Shown piece by piece: positions 10,443 through 16,461 of a stretch of DNA of 40,885 nucleotides. The first letter of the stretch is position 1. Each line of letters begins with the position of its first letter. Source of the stretch: Bacteroidota bacterium (lineage in GTDB: Bacteria > Bacteroidota > Bacteroidia > Chitinophagales > Chitinophagaceae); assembly GCA_013285595.1 (NCBI GenBank), contig JABDHF010000018.1, positions 1 to 40,885 of the forward strand, in the 5' to 3' direction. Under the pieces are notes generated by a model. It searched no databases and had not been told where the DNA came from. It was given only the letters and a program-made list of their open reading frames with translations. Made by a program: the position numbers and the translations under genes.

Positions 10443-10461
10443 CCCCAAACCCCTAAAGGGG
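10443..10461. repeat. 19-base G/C palindromic repeat, copy A
   Basis: On the minus strand this reads CCCCTTTAGGGGTTTGGGG, identical over 19 bases to 15113-15131 on the plus strand. The inner CCCC-TTTA-GGGG forms a hairpin (stem extended by one A-T pair). It sits just upstream of the prfB promoter in the divergent prfB/SpoIIM spacer. Confidence 0.8.
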
Positions 10462-12277: not shown

Positions 12278-13548
12278 GGAAGAGATACACGCACATGTTG
12301 CTCATTGTTTTTGCGACTACCATGCTTACATGTGTAAGCGGGTGCCTGCAGGATAAAACACAACAGGAGGCAATGAAGTGGCGGGTATCGCTGGACAAAG
12401 AAGATAAACGGCCTTATGGTACTTACATTGCATTTCAGTCGCTAAAGGATTATTTTCCTGATGCTGCAATAGCGTCGGTCTCGCGTGGCTTCAGGTATAC
12501 TAATATGGATAGCAGGATGCTGTATAACAACTACGGCCATACCTTGCTGATACTGGAAGGCCTTGACTTTTATGTATCGGATGCAGAATGGACAGACCTG
12601 AAAGATTTTGTGAGGCGTGGCAATGAGCTGGTTATTTTTTGCAGTACGCTCGATGGTAAGATAGAGCAGGAATTATATTGCTACAAAGAGGTTAAGGGAG
12701 GAGAGGATGCCTTGTTCTTTAAGTTTGCCCCACAGCATGAGAATAAAAATCTCTTAAGCTTATATAGTGAGCCGGGAAGAAAATTCGGGTATGAGGGGCA
12801 TTCGCTGAAAGGATTTTTTTCGTTCCCGCATGATAGCTCTGATACCGGAACTATAGTTACCAGCACTTCGATATTCCCGCCGTATCCAGATACCTTCGGA
12901 TGTGTAAACGGCCAACCGGATTTTGTCCGTTACAGGTATGGTGAAGGGCACCTGACGTTGCATGCCGCGCCACTTGTGCTGAGCAACTACTTTTTGCTGC
13001 AGGATGGGAATAGGGATTACCTTACGGCGCTTTGGCAAAGCCTGCCCTCAGATATAAACAGGGTTTACTGGAATGATTACTTTAAAAGAAATGCAGAGGC
13101 ATCTGGCCTTGATGTGCTGATGCGCTACCCGGCTACAAGATGGGCACTGATCATTGGCATTCTTACACTACTGTTGTATATTTTATTTGAGGGCAAACGG
13201 AAGCAGCGGATAATACCTATAGTAGAGCCGCTGAAGAACGATTCTGTATCGTTTGTGGAAACGGTGGGTAGGTTGTATTATAATAAAGGCAACCATACCA
13301 ACCTTGCGGAAAAAATGGTGCTGCAGTTCCTGGACTGGGTGCGTACTTATTACTTTTTGAATACCAACCTTATTAACGAGGCTTTTATCCGGCAGCTGAT
13401 ACTGAAATCGGGGCAGCCGGAGGCGACGGTGCGTGGGCTGATAGACATGATCACCGAAATAAGGTCCGGCAAAGAAAAGCCAGACGACGCTTATCTTTAC
13501 CAGCTATACAATACCATACAGCAATTTTATAAAAAACAGCACAGATGA
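12274..13548 (+). CDS. DUF4350-domain lipoprotein/membrane protein
   Basis: A 424-residue protein with a lipoprotein-type signal (MRKRYTHMLLIVFATTMLTC, lipobox VSGC near residue 24). A periplasmic domain contains YGTYIAFQSLKDYFPDA and YGHTLLILEGLDFYVSDAEW, the DUF4350 pattern related to a glutamine-amidotransferase-like fold. A membrane span (WALIIGILTLLLYILFEGKRKQR, about residues 289-311) precedes a cytoplasmic helical tail. It overlaps DUF4129 (ATGA) and MoxR (ATGA), so the three are translationally coupled. Its role in the MoxR system is unknown; possibly it is a membrane anchor or a client-recognition component (inference). Confidence 0.85.
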   Translation: MRKRYTHMLLIVFATTMLTCVSGCLQDKTQQEAMKWRVSLDKEDKRPYGTYIAFQSLKDYFPDAAIASVSRGFRYTNMDSRMLYNNYGHTLLILEGLDFYVSDAEWTDLKDFVRRGNELVIFCSTLDGKIEQELYCYKEVKGGEDALFFKFAPQHENKNLLSLYSEPGRKFGYEGHSLKGFFSFPHDSSDTGTIVTSTSIFPPYPDTFGCVNGQPDFVRYRYGEGHLTLHAAPLVLSNYFLLQDGNRDYLTALWQSLPSDINRVYWNDYFKRNAEASGLDVLMRYPATRWALIIGILTLLLYILFEGKRKQRIIPIVEPLKNDSVSFVETVGRLYYNKGNHTNLAEKMVLQFLDWVRTYYFLNTNLINEAFIRQLILKSGQPEATVRGLIDMITEIRSGKEKPDDAYLYQLYNTIQQFYKKQHR

Positions 13549-14555
13549 TAGAAGCAGCCGAGCAAGAATATACACCCCAGCAACAACCTGTAAGCAGTGA
13601 ACAGGAACAGCCTCATCCGCTGACGCAGCTTGTGGAGCGGGTGCAGGAAAAGATACAACAGGTTATAGTAGGCCAGCATAGCATGATAGAACAACTGCTT
13701 GCGGGGCTGCTTGCTGATGGGCATATACTTATAGAGGGGGTGCCTGGTGTGGCAAAAACGCTTACCGCAAAGCTGCTATCGAAACTTATAGATACGCGCT
13801 TTTCGCGTATACAGTTTACGCCCGACCTTATGCCAAGCGATGTGCTGGGCACAAGTATTTTTAACCCGCAAACATCGAGCTTTCAATTTAAGGCGGGGCC
13901 GGTGTTTAGCAATATCGTGCTGATAGACGAGATAAACCGTGCGCCGGCAAAAACACAGGCTGCGTTGTTTGAAGTAATGGAAGAGCGCCAGGTGACGGTG
14001 GATGGGCTTACGCACAAAATGCAGTCGCCGTTTATGGTGATAGCTACGCAAAACCCTATAGAGCACGAGGGCACCTATCGCCTGCCGGAAGCACAGCTCG
14101 ACCGCTTCCTTGTAAAAATAACTGTAGGCTATCCATCGCTGGAAGATGAAATAAAAATACTGGAACGGCATAATCAACAGGCTATTACTGAATTGCTGAC
14201 CAGCATGGAACCTGTGATAACGCCAGAGATACTGAATAATGCCCGTATGCAGGTAAGGGCAACGCATATAGAACCTAAGCTGCTGGAATTTGTTGCCAAA
14301 ATAGTTTGGGAAACACGTAATGACCGCTCGCTGTACCTTGGTGCATCTCCTCGTGCATCTATAGCATTGCTGCAGATAGCTAAGGCATTCAGCGTATTGC
14401 GTGGAAGGAACTTTGTGATACCGGAAGATATACTGGAGGCGGCGCCAGCGGTACTCCGCCATCGTATAGGGCTTACCCCTGAGCGGGAAATGGAGGGGTC
14501 TACAACTGATGATGTGATCAGGGAGATAATAGCGAGGATGGAGATACCACGGTAA
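13545..14555 (+). CDS. MoxR-family AAA+ ATPase
   Basis: A 336-residue cytoplasmic AAA+ ATPase thought to act as a chaperone for metal-cofactor insertion or assembly of partner complexes. The Walker A is GVPGVAKT (65-72), Walker B IVLIDEINRAPAKTQ (Asp128, Glu129), sensor 1 in MVIATQNPIEHEGTYRLPEAQLDRF, and sensor 2 in LGASPRASIALL. It starts inside the last codons of DUF4350 (ATGA overlap). Normally the DUF58 gene follows directly; here a 532-base insertion with a DUF559 gene and repeats separates them. All ATPase residues look intact. Confidence 0.94.
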   Translation: MIEAAEQEYTPQQQPVSSEQEQPHPLTQLVERVQEKIQQVIVGQHSMIEQLLAGLLADGHILIEGVPGVAKTLTAKLLSKLIDTRFSRIQFTPDLMPSDVLGTSIFNPQTSSFQFKAGPVFSNIVLIDEINRAPAKTQAALFEVMEERQVTVDGLTHKMQSPFMVIATQNPIEHEGTYRLPEAQLDRFLVKITVGYPSLEDEIKILERHNQQAITELLTSMEPVITPEILNNARMQVRATHIEPKLLEFVAKIVWETRNDRSLYLGASPRASIALLQIAKAFSVLRGRNFVIPEDILEAAPAVLRHRIGLTPEREMEGSTTDDVIREIIARMEIPR

Positions 14556-14579
14556 CCCCTGAACCCCTGAAGGGGAACC
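14556..14579. repeat. G/C palindromic repeat, copy B (5' border of the DUF559 insert)
   Basis: Starts immediately after the MoxR stop: CCCCTGAACCCCTGAAGGGG followed by AACC. On the minus strand this is CCCCTTCAGGGGTTCAGGGG, a variant of the CCCCTTTAGGGGTTTGGGG element found at 15113-15131 and 10443-10461. Its orientation is inverted relative to the copy beyond the DUF559 gene. Confidence 0.7.
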
Positions 14580-14673
14580 TGCTATTGGGCTTTTGTTCGT
14601 TGGGTTCAGCAAATCGTTTCAATTAGGCTAATTATTTTTCTGTCAATTGGAGATGCGAGTAAAAGTTTTGAGT

Positions 14674-15072
14674 ATGAAGAAGAAAATGTTTTTAGCGGCA
14701 GATAACTTGATCTTTGATAATGCCCGGCAATTAAGGGAAAATCCTACTCATGCGGAGTTGATAATGTGGTCTTACTTAAAACAGAAGCCTTTAGGTTACA
14801 AGTTCAGAAGACAACATCCAATTAGTATTTATATCGCAGATTTTTATTGTCATGCTCTAAAGTTGATAATTGAACTAGATGGAGGCATACATTCTGATAC
14901 CGACATACAAAAGCATGATATTGAAAGACAGAAAAATCTCGAAAGCGGAGGAATAACTTTTGTTAGATTTAAGAATGAAGAGGTTGAAAAAGAATTTGAA
15001 GTAGTAATTAATAGAATTGAAACCTACTTAAATAATATGGAGAAGCCCAGGGGATTAGGGGCGATAAATTAA
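14674..15072 (+). CDS. DUF559 endonuclease-domain protein (Vsr-like PD-(D/E)XK fold)
   Basis: A 132-residue small protein with the DUF559 signature: Glu28 in NPTHAELIMWSYL, FRRQHPI (44-50), Asp56 in IADFYC, then IIELDGG with Glu67 and Asp69, and His73. These match the catalytic core of restriction-like endonucleases related to very-short-patch repair nucleases. No activity is established for most members. The ATG at 14674 gives the usual N-terminus MKKKMFLAADNLIFDNARQL; upstream in-frame TTG (14647) and ATG (14653) are possible. It interrupts the MoxR-DUF58 pair, is more AT-rich than its neighbours, and is bordered by palindromic repeats. Its last residues (MEKPRGLGAIN) are encoded by a degraded repeat copy. 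It may be a mobile or repeat-associated gene. Confidence 0.85.
   Translation: MKKKMFLAADNLIFDNARQLRENPTHAELIMWSYLKQKPLGYKFRRQHPISIYIADFYCHALKLIIELDGGIHSDTDIQKHDIERQKNLESGGITFVRFKNEEVEKEFEVVINRIETYLNNMEKPRGLGAIN
15043..15062. repeat. G/C repeat, degraded copy C inside the DUF559 3' end
   Basis: AAGCCCAGGGGATTAGGGGC aligns with the intact copy at 15110-15132 if CTTT is deleted and one base is substituted. The deletion removes the hairpin. The copy is translated as the last residues of the DUF559 protein. Confidence 0.6.
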
Positions 15073-15087
15073 TAAGTTGATAGGTCA

Positions 15088-16461
15088 ATGAGTGCTACAA
15101 AACAAGGGGAAGCCCCTTTAGGGGTTTGGGGCAGGAAATATTTAGGCGATCTGTTCATCAGCAGGAGGTGGTACCTGTTGCTGGGGGGCTGTGTTATTCT
15201 GTTGTTCCTGTCGTTCTTTATTCATGTTTTGTACAGGCCGGTAATGGCGTTTACCATTGGTGTTGTCCTGCTTTCATTGGTTGATTATGGGGTGCTTTTT
15301 TTTGTTGCAGGCGGCATAAGGGCTGCGCGTGTGCTTTCTCCCCGGTTTAGCATCGGCGACGATAATACGGTAACGCTTTCCATCTACAACTCTTACCCGT
15401 TTAAGATAAAAGGTACACTGATAGAGGAGCTGCCCTTCCAGTTCCAAAACCGGAATTTCCATTTGCCGTTTACTATCGGTTACCGGGCACGTGAGACAAG
15501 GTCTTATACCTTGCGGCCACTATCTCGTGGGGAGTATAATTTCGGGCATCTTATCTGTTTTACATCAAGCCCTTTGGGGTTGTTGCAGCGTCGTTTTAAT
15601 GTGGCTGAGCCGGTGACTATTAAAGTTTACCCTTCTTACCAACAGCTGCGCAAATACCAGTTGCTGGCTATAAGTGGCAATACGCTTACCGGCGTAAAGA
15701 AGATACGCAGGCTGGGCCATAGCCTGGAGTTTGAAAAGATAAAAGACTATGTGCAGGGCGATGATGTGCGCACCATAAACTGGAAGGCTACGGCGAGAAG
15801 CAATAATGTGATGGTAAATACGTTTACCGATGCACGCCAGCAGCAGATATACTGCCTGATAGATAAGGGCCGTAATATGAAGATGCCTTTTGAGGGCATG
15901 ACCCTGCTGGACCATTCTATCAATACCAGCCTGGCACTGCTTAATGTTGCTTTGCTGAAACAAGATAAAGCCGGGCTCATTACCTTTTCAAACAAGGTGA
16001 ACGACATAATAGTTGCTGACAGGCGAAACGACCAGCTGCACCGCATACTGGAAACACTTTACAAACAGCAAACAGAATTTAAAGAGAGTGACTATGAAGC
16101 AGTGTGGACCATGATACATAGGAATATTACCCAGCGCAGCCTTATCTTGCTGTTTACCAATTTCGAAACTTATTCTTCGCTGGAGCGGCAATTGCCATTT
16201 CTGAAAAAGATAGCACAGCGGCACCTTGTGGTAGTTGTCTTTTTTCAAAATACGTTGCTCAAAGAGATCCATGAATCTAACCCCGACAACATAGAGGGCA
16301 TTTACATAAAAACGATCGCAGACCAGTTTGACCTGGAAAAACGGCAGATAGTAAAAGAGCTGCGTCGCCACGGTGTACTGTCTATACTTACTACCCCGCA
16401 AACGCTTACTATTGATGTGATCAATAAATACCTGGAACTAAAGGCCCGGCAAATGGTCTAA
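15088..16461 (+). CDS. DUF58 domain protein, MoxR partner
   Basis: A 457-residue membrane-anchored protein. Two membrane spans lie near residues 30-70 (YLLLGGCVILLFLSFFIHVLY; MAFTIGVVLLSLVDYGVLFF). The C-terminal half is a vWA-like DUF58 domain with GHSLEFEKIKDYVQGDDVRT, INWKATARSNNVMVNTF, CLIDKGRNM and AGLITFSN. It is expected to be the client or partner of the MoxR ATPase. The first residues (MSATKQGEAPLGVWGRKYLG) are unusual: they are encoded by the palindromic repeat at 15106-15131. An internal start is not obvious, so the repeat probably extended or replaced the original N-terminus. Confidence 0.9.
   Translation: MSATKQGEAPLGVWGRKYLGDLFISRRWYLLLGGCVILLFLSFFIHVLYRPVMAFTIGVVLLSLVDYGVLFFVAGGIRAARVLSPRFSIGDDNTVTLSIYNSYPFKIKGTLIEELPFQFQNRNFHLPFTIGYRARETRSYTLRPLSRGEYNFGHLICFTSSPLGLLQRRFNVAEPVTIKVYPSYQQLRKYQLLAISGNTLTGVKKIRRLGHSLEFEKIKDYVQGDDVRTINWKATARSNNVMVNTFTDARQQQIYCLIDKGRNMKMPFEGMTLLDHSINTSLALLNVALLKQDKAGLITFSNKVNDIIVADRRNDQLHRILETLYKQQTEFKESDYEAVWTMIHRNITQRSLILLFTNFETYSSLERQLPFLKKIAQRHLVVVVFFQNTLLKEIHESNPDNIEGIYIKTIADQFDLEKRQIVKELRRHGVLSILTTPQTLTIDVINKYLELKARQMV
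15106..15131. repeat. G/C palindromic repeat, copy D (3' border of the DUF559 insert)
   Basis: GGGGAAG followed by CCCCTTTAGGGGTTTGGGG (15113-15131), the latter identical to the copy upstream of prfB. It contains a CCCC-TTTA-GGGG hairpin, and GGGGAAGCCCC can form an alternative one. It is translated as GEAPLGVWG in the DUF58 protein. Confidence 0.8.

Follow-up and report, generated by a model that had tools for sequence, protein, structure and literature searches.

The window analysed here is a stretch of 40,885 nucleotides. It corresponds to contig C18 of a 2.93 Mb draft genome, which is 59.6% complete. In this region, a MoxR-type AAA ATPase gene (13545–14555, plus strand) is followed by a DUF559 gene (14674–15072, plus strand) and a DUF58 gene (15088–16461, plus strand). 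The DUF58 frame is open from the ATG at 15088, and the gap between MoxR and DUF58 measures 532 bases. According to the ORFs of the window and a profile search, DUF559 is the sole gene of this insert. It matches PF04480 at 108.8 bits (cut-off 20.6) and is the only DUF559 match in the draft genome searched. Its start is probably the ATG at 14674, as homologues suggest, giving a protein of 132 amino acids. The GC content of the gene is 33.6%, compared with 44.6% for the whole window.

Two ends bound the insert. The left end, of type L (14554–14595, plus strand), adjoins the TAA stop of MoxR, which ends at 14555 and is directly followed by CCCCTGAACCCCTGAAGGGG. Similarly built ends are present at other sites of the genome. 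It consists of a foot AACCCCTGAA, the palindrome CCCCTGAAGGGG at 14564–14575, a tail AACC and a subterminal TGCTATTGGGCTTTTG. The right end, of type R (15097–15131, minus strand), is inverted relative to the left one. It presents a foot CCCCAAA, the palindrome CCCCTAAAGGGG at 15113–15124 and a tail CTTCCCC. The two borders are inverted copies of one palindrome, with 84% complementarity over 19 nt. The DUF58 open frame takes in the right palindrome, and its first 15 codons overlap the right end. Residues 1–15 of DUF58 (MSATKQGEAPLGVWG) are the translated repeat, and the DUF58 of most close relatives aligns only from about residue 16. A further, single palindrome of the same class is present at 10450–10461 (plus strand), with the R-type foot ACCCCAAA. 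Within the window, three copies of the motif CCCCTNNAGGGG are found, at 10450, 14564, and 15113, against 0.017 per letter shuffle. The stretch of the right end (15030–15134) folds better than 199 of 200 shuffles (z = -3.00). The left end (14556–14640) folds no better than its shuffles (z = -0.31). The first-pass annotation had described an insert starting directly after the MoxR stop, a separation of 532 bases, an AT-rich DUF559 gene, mutually inverted borders, and a right repeat running into the DUF58 N-terminus. All these features were recovered, and the separation gave the same figure when re-measured.

The AlphaFold model of the DUF559 protein had a pLDDT of 82.4 and a pTM of 0.76. Its best Foldseek matches in the PDB were 3hrl (1.2e-6) and I-Bth0305I (8.7e-4). 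Weaker structural matches included AbaSI, mitoribosomal proteins, the R2 retrotransposon protein, and Vsr. Likewise, the profile match with I-Bth0305I was 2.3e-6. Among 68 sequences, E26, D54, E65, and D80 (numbering from 14680) are invariant, and D67 and H71 are conserved in at least 90%. From the model and the structural and profile matches, DUF559 is predicted to share the catalytic fold of EDxHD homing endonucleases.

The palindrome of the window is CCCCTRAAGGGG with a C-rich foot. The pattern CCCCTN{0,6}AGGGG has 42 sites on each strand of the 2.9 Mb genome, compared with 1 for the reversed control pattern. We sorted the 36 other class-A sites of the genome by eye into 11 of type L, 15 of type R, and 10 of neither type. 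Type L has the form AACCCCTGA-CCCCTRAAGGGG-AACC, then ATTTAGCT. Type R consists of CCCCAAA or CCCCAAC followed by CCCCTRAAGGGG, often with CTT next. The DUF559 gene of the window has an L end on its left and an R end on its right. In a count of 36 palindromes of this genome, 16 fall within mechanical open frames, a proportion that is uninformative. A CCC run is present in 45 of 52 feet, the foot being defined as the more C-rich side. Of the 52 ends, one (L148) has GTAG on its foot side, and 7 have it on either side.

Doublets were counted over 150 listed class-A sites of four genomes, with G028 covered in part (53 of 65). Neighbours at most 200 bp apart were facing, as at DUF559, in 25 cases, reversed in 1 and tandem in 14. 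The 25 facing pairs carry no gene and are spaced 54–151 bp. At 200–1000 bp there were three facing pairs, every one enclosing DUF559. Beside one DUF559 element (L042, G015:C11), five class-A left ends stand in tandem at a spacing of about 112 bp. A G-T mismatch between left and right feet, seen by eye, would fit a Vsr-like enzyme. It was set aside; left-left pairs also exist.

We searched 60 genomes for PF04480 and found 71 places in 34 of them. Forty-two were analysed as standalone genes, including the window locus and three that sit in longer frames (L023, L024, and L057). Sixteen were long fused frames, 15 of which were analysed, and 13 weak or partial matches were left out. The class table comprises 39 loci, omitting L005, L023 (masked flank), and L030 from the 42. 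A palindrome of the gene's own clade was found within 330 bp on at least one side in 36 of the 39 genus and order loci, and on both sides in 21, with repeat classes and motifs defined after the loci had been viewed. The motif of another clade was found in none of the 39 (330-bp flanks). The three loci lacking the motif are L010 and L055, with strong inverted flanks (scores of 98 and 48), and L037, whose class-A label was assigned by eye. When mapped on the protein tree, which has 41 loci, the eight repeat labels required 8 changes (minimum 7, shuffled mean 21.4). The A-prime label by itself is hardly clustered (26 of 500 shuffles were as low). Five genomes (G016, G020, G027, G015, and G006) have two or three paralogues each, from clades A and B/C, and each paralogue has its own repeat. 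Because paralogues sharing one genome keep their own repeats, the matching of repeat class does not reflect host history. As far as sequence comparison goes, DUF559 genes are demonstrably paired with class-specific palindromes.

Inverted flanks were scored flank to flank, with a threshold of 28 and offset windows nearby as the control. For the named loci, the best 80 of 577, of which 79 were scorable, the threshold was reached in 42 of 79, against 2 of 289 offset windows. Nine of them were duplicated genus loci, and without these the count was 36 of 70. Only 24 of 41 genus and order loci passed. The window locus did not; its score of 23 is barely over its best shuffle (22). In a plasmid collection, 19 of 23 DUF559 loci, hand-picked by the analyst, reached at least 28, against 2 of 46 offset windows. 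These loci include Sphingomonas, Sinorhizobium, Azospirillum, cyanobacteria, and four Deinococcus. The Azospirillum brasilense locus, which is among the 19 with a score of 28, is GC-rich and not clearly palindromic. Below 28 were L296, L301, L302, and L316. In L302, from a record labelled E. coli KE47, the DUF559 gene has no inverted flanks, and a 45-base palindrome starts 53 bases upstream of the match.

Inverted flanks are present at DUF559 loci in Alphaproteobacteria, Cyanobacteria, and Deinococcus. Three Deinococcus species carry DUF559 at three different junctions of an hpa gene cluster; in D. proteolyticus, one of these junctions is empty. In Sinorhizobium meliloti Ak57, a 138-bp doublet stands on both sides of DUF559, its two copies inverted. 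Matches to this doublet, mostly partial, occupy 39 places in its own record. Across 265 plasmid records they occupy 1239 places, and in 19 of these records a single place covers 80% of it. We also scored the flanks of 20 Y1 transposase loci, two of which were dropped for short flanks. The threshold was reached in 14 of 18, against 0 of 34 offset windows. DUF559 and RAYT-like genes therefore have inverted flanks in common. It is the class matching, and not inverted flanks as such, that ties the repeats to DUF559.

The number of repeats was compared with the presence of the cognate gene for classes A, B, and D in 35 genus genomes, with counts that ignore relatedness. Class-A repeats had a median of 65 with a clade-A gene (n = 13) and 3 without it (n = 22; p = 1.6e-4). 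For class B the medians were 9 with the gene (n = 7) and 1 without (n = 28; p = 4.3e-3). For class D they were 8 (n = 3) and 0 (n = 32; p = 3.8e-4). Six cross-class comparisons of repeat number with a non-cognate clade in the same genomes gave p values of 0.077–0.61. The class-A effect persisted when G023 and G025 were added (1.2e-4) and in genomes more than 90% complete (1.0e-3). In G033, the only two class-D palindromes both flank its D-type gene. On the other hand, class-A sites are present in 13 of 22 genomes without a clade-A gene (G031, 58; G017, 56; G023, 52; G004, 47; G033, 40). The 52 sites of G023 accompany a fragment of a DUF559 gene. Repeats without the cognate gene also appear in 15 of 28 genomes for class B and 7 of 32 for class D. 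Such repeats without a gene, in many genomes, count against a reading in which DUF559 drives them. Conversely, G022 has a B-type gene and zero sites of the class-B pattern. No PF04480 match was found in G004 (99% complete), G013, or G018. The 47 class-A and 13 class-B palindromes of G004 are orphan repeats.

We compared three conserved junctions. At MoxR-DUF58, none of the 13 relatives seen has a DUF559 gene. G033, G021, and G001 have a gene-less repeat pair, and G016 has a left end alone. No class-A palindrome was found at this junction in G028, G011, G012, G013, G005, or G025. Other inserts are present in G004 (another repeat), G031 (a longer hairpin), and G015 (other genes). The genes of G015 (L119) are two small opposite-strand frames which we take, by eye, to be like DUF4160 and DUF2442. 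The short repeat of G004 (L122) is near GCCCTGAAAGGGCGCAAT and occurs three times, with GAGGGGTGAAGCCCCTC-like palindromes between. The junction seems to be a common landing place.

The second junction lies upstream of a gene that we take to be ispF, and 17 loci were compared. A full element is present in G020 and G029, and G023 has a fragment of DUF559 at the edge of its contig. G016, G021, G004, and G008 have a gene-less pair, which in G008 holds, by eye, a remnant of the DUF559 C-terminus. G027 retains a right end; the element is decayed in G000, G011, and G031. No element was found there in G033, G028, G006, or G025, and the neighbours are others in G015 and G005. The third junction is between genes that are presumably a nucleotidyltransferase and an aminotransferase. 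It is full in G028, G021, and G016, where the gene has a stop codon. G008 and G004 have a pair, G006 a left end, and G033 part of a left end; no element was found at this junction in G001. The remaining loci have other neighbours or are unreadable.

Three of the same-site gene pairs are sisters in the tree, and a fourth same-site copy (L052) is not grouped with its pair. Given the sister genes and the series of states, full elements look largely inherited in place and decaying to repeat pairs, as read from sequence, and the repeats are also at many other sites. Full elements are mostly at shared sites, and a fresh transposition of the gene itself was not seen. At the junctions compared, empty and occupied sites are too diverged to read a target-site duplication. 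The series of presence and absence, like the dispersal of the repeats, is shown at the level of sequence.

The 15 fused frames are insertions of DUF559 in host genes, namely leucyl-tRNA synthetase (LeuRS) in 12, MiaB in 2, and an HsdR-like gene in 1. The host genes were identified from translations, and four of the 15 were scanned with Pfam. Initially taken as a negative control, since they have no CCCCT..AGGGG, these frames were dropped as such; they are further elements with another palindrome class. Inverted flanks of at least 28 are present in 13 of 15, and the two MiaB copies score 23 and 27. No intein family was found in the 13 fused frames scanned. The LeuRS insert falls between positions matching residues 236 and 242 of 2v0c, which we take to be the solved chain of T. 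thermophilus LeuRS. G028 has no insert at this first site, with 39 amino acids between the motifs against 178–253 in 13 other loci. Its insert is instead at a second LeuRS site, where four relatives have short translated repeats only. Outside the genus, DUF559 is in frame in LeuRS, MetH, and HsdR, and also in frames with DNA methylase, HsdM, or GATase_5 domains. The flanks of these frames are weaker, with at least 28 in 4 of 8 (L228, L231, L235, and L237, and not L229, L230, L233, or L238). One HsdR-like frame (L250, G321) has a GIY-YIG domain together with the DUF559 domain.

The class-B repeat has a constant foot AACCACCCC and palindrome, with a hairpin of variable sequence between. In 33 distinct copies, the pairing of the arms at seven outer positions was 0.948, with the arm offset chosen for best pairing, compared with 0.436 for re-dealt arms (maximum 0.571 of 1000). 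Forced pairs comprised 248 Watson-Crick, 1 G-T, and 15 other. Energy folding gave 345 Watson-Crick and 6 G-T pairs. That G-T pairs are so scarce may point to hairpin DNA or copying by fold-back more than to an RNA. Hairpins that vary in a similar way appear in Sphingobium and Sphingomonas, as well as next to the foot in Deinococcus. Among the class-B loci, L045 and L057 lack the variable hairpin.

We consider, with a probability of about 0.72, that the insert is a REPIN-like palindromic mobile element in which a nuclease of the Vsr/EDxHD fold replaces the HUH RAYT as cognate enzyme. The first-pass annotation had proposed a mobile or repeat-propagating unit akin to REP/RAYT and, as checks, a count of repeats beside DUF559 homologues and a look for empty sites in relatives. 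This proposal gains support from the own-clade palindromes (36/39), the inverted flanks (42/79 against 2/289), and the MoxR-DUF58 junction, where relatives lack the gene (0/13) and have pairs, a single end, or no class-A palindrome. The best explanation of these patterns is that DUF559 moves the repeats. A full copy would consist of two inverted ends, each with a C-rich foot and a GC palindrome, and one class-specific DUF559 nuclease gene. The gene-less facing pairs 54–151 bp apart would be its non-autonomous, REPIN-like forms. The ends might extrude as hairpins in single-stranded or cruciform DNA, and DUF559 would cut at the foot. The strand or 3' end so released could then be joined to a new site or copied there; in the cases that were read, this site often falls between a stop codon and a start codon. 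The hairpin arms may be renewed by fold-back copying. A wider proposal is more tentative, and we give it slightly less than even odds. Under it, C-foot palindromic mobile repeats would form a widespread and as yet unassigned superfamily across many bacterial phyla, with DUF559 nucleases as their dedicated enzymes. These repeats would travel as folded single-stranded DNA, enter between the genes of operons and in frame within essential proteins, and restore their hairpin arms through fold-back copying.

Another enzyme, either a Y1/RAYT transposase or host repair, could move the repeats, with DUF559 as cargo or accessory nuclease. Y1 matches in 33 of 35 genus genomes, the inverted flanks of Y1 loci (14/18), and the class-A sites in genomes without a clade-A gene (13/22) agree with this. 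However, a single class-A palindrome was found around 20 Y1 matches (at most 1.5 kb per side), 1.3 kb off in L117. Moreover, no Y1 match was found in G018, which has 8 class-A sites, and it is the DUF559 clade that predicts the repeat class. We regard such a mover as unlikely. Homing is less probable still. DUF559 would cut empty sites and be copied in by repair, the palindromes being its borders. I-Bth0305I is the nearest solved fold besides 3hrl, and insertion occurs at the same site across species, in frame in LeuRS. Against homing are the many gene-less repeats and pairs at other sites, the repeat-specific pairing, and the absence of intein families from the fused frames scanned.

The role of a very-short-patch mismatch repair enzyme, in repeat-rich surroundings by chance, has very little probability. 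Vsr is among the weaker fold matches, and a Caulobacter DUF559 protein, VsrA, was proposed for such a role in the excerpted text of PMC12907096. Nevertheless, the window locus neighbours MoxR and DUF58 and no methyltransferase, and the gene is flanked by repeats across clades. The least probable explanation takes the palindromes as terminators or RNA elements close to DUF559 by coincidence. They are palindromic and, in several cases, stand straight after stop codons. Yet they also lie within operons and open frames, Rfam gave 0 matches in the 12 loci scanned, class matching is strict, and G-T pairs are nearly absent from the variable hairpin.

If DUF559 does move the repeats, a common family of "unknown function" would be given a role, and a candidate enzyme would be at hand for a large group of bacterial palindromes of obscure origin. 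The task that RAYTs supposedly perform for REPs would then have a second, unrelated solution, built on a nuclease fold that homing endonucleases share and that Vsr and the R2 retrotransposon protein resemble more weakly. The LeuRS elements would illustrate a way for mobile DNA to introduce translated segments into an essential protein. A hairpin that is hypervariable and still complementary keeps a record in its sequence from which the copying mechanism might be read. A search of open-access PMC full text, whose scope excludes subscription papers and bioRxiv, returned no report linking DUF559 with palindromic repeats by title or abstract. In PMC9403480, a DUF559 gene is called an EDxHD homing endonuclease, in a section on intein-containing genes, and the terms "repeat" and "palindrom" do not occur in that paper.

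Compared with known systems, the element shares terminal inverted repeats with MITEs and IS that use a DDE transposase, although the full copy has no such transposase. The rhizobial RIME and A/B/C palindromes are likewise dispersed intergenic repeats, a likeness by description only (excerpts of PMC2573895 and PMC2245857). Rickettsia palindromic elements are translated within host proteins, as here (PMC3733652, in part), whereas here the same frame also carries a nuclease domain. CGTC-tagged REPs are palindromic and said to be without a dedicated transposase (PMC3733652, same part). As a candidate identity they were discarded: the CGTC tag with an ATTCCC..GGGAAT-type stem was found at 0 of 9 DUF559 plasmid loci. 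The EDxHD homing endonucleases (I-Bth0305I) and Vsr have the fold predicted for DUF559; however, no intein family was found in the fused frames scanned here, and the gene is bounded by a dispersed repeat family. The nearest parallel is described, in the portions cited, by PMC3733652 and PMC6006769. The REP/REPIN-RAYT systems (TnpA-REP, REPtron) also have multicopy palindromes with an unpaired foot, inverted doublets, and a cognate gene flanked by repeats. They likewise have several repeat classes per genome with matching genes, and orphan repeats in some genomes. By the same excerpts, the enzyme there is an HUH Y1 protein and the foot is GTAG; here we find a DUF559 nuclease fold and a foot of ACCCC/CACCC-like sequence. 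The elements described here further differ from REP/RAYT in their in-frame entry into a host protein and in one class with a hypervariable hairpin.
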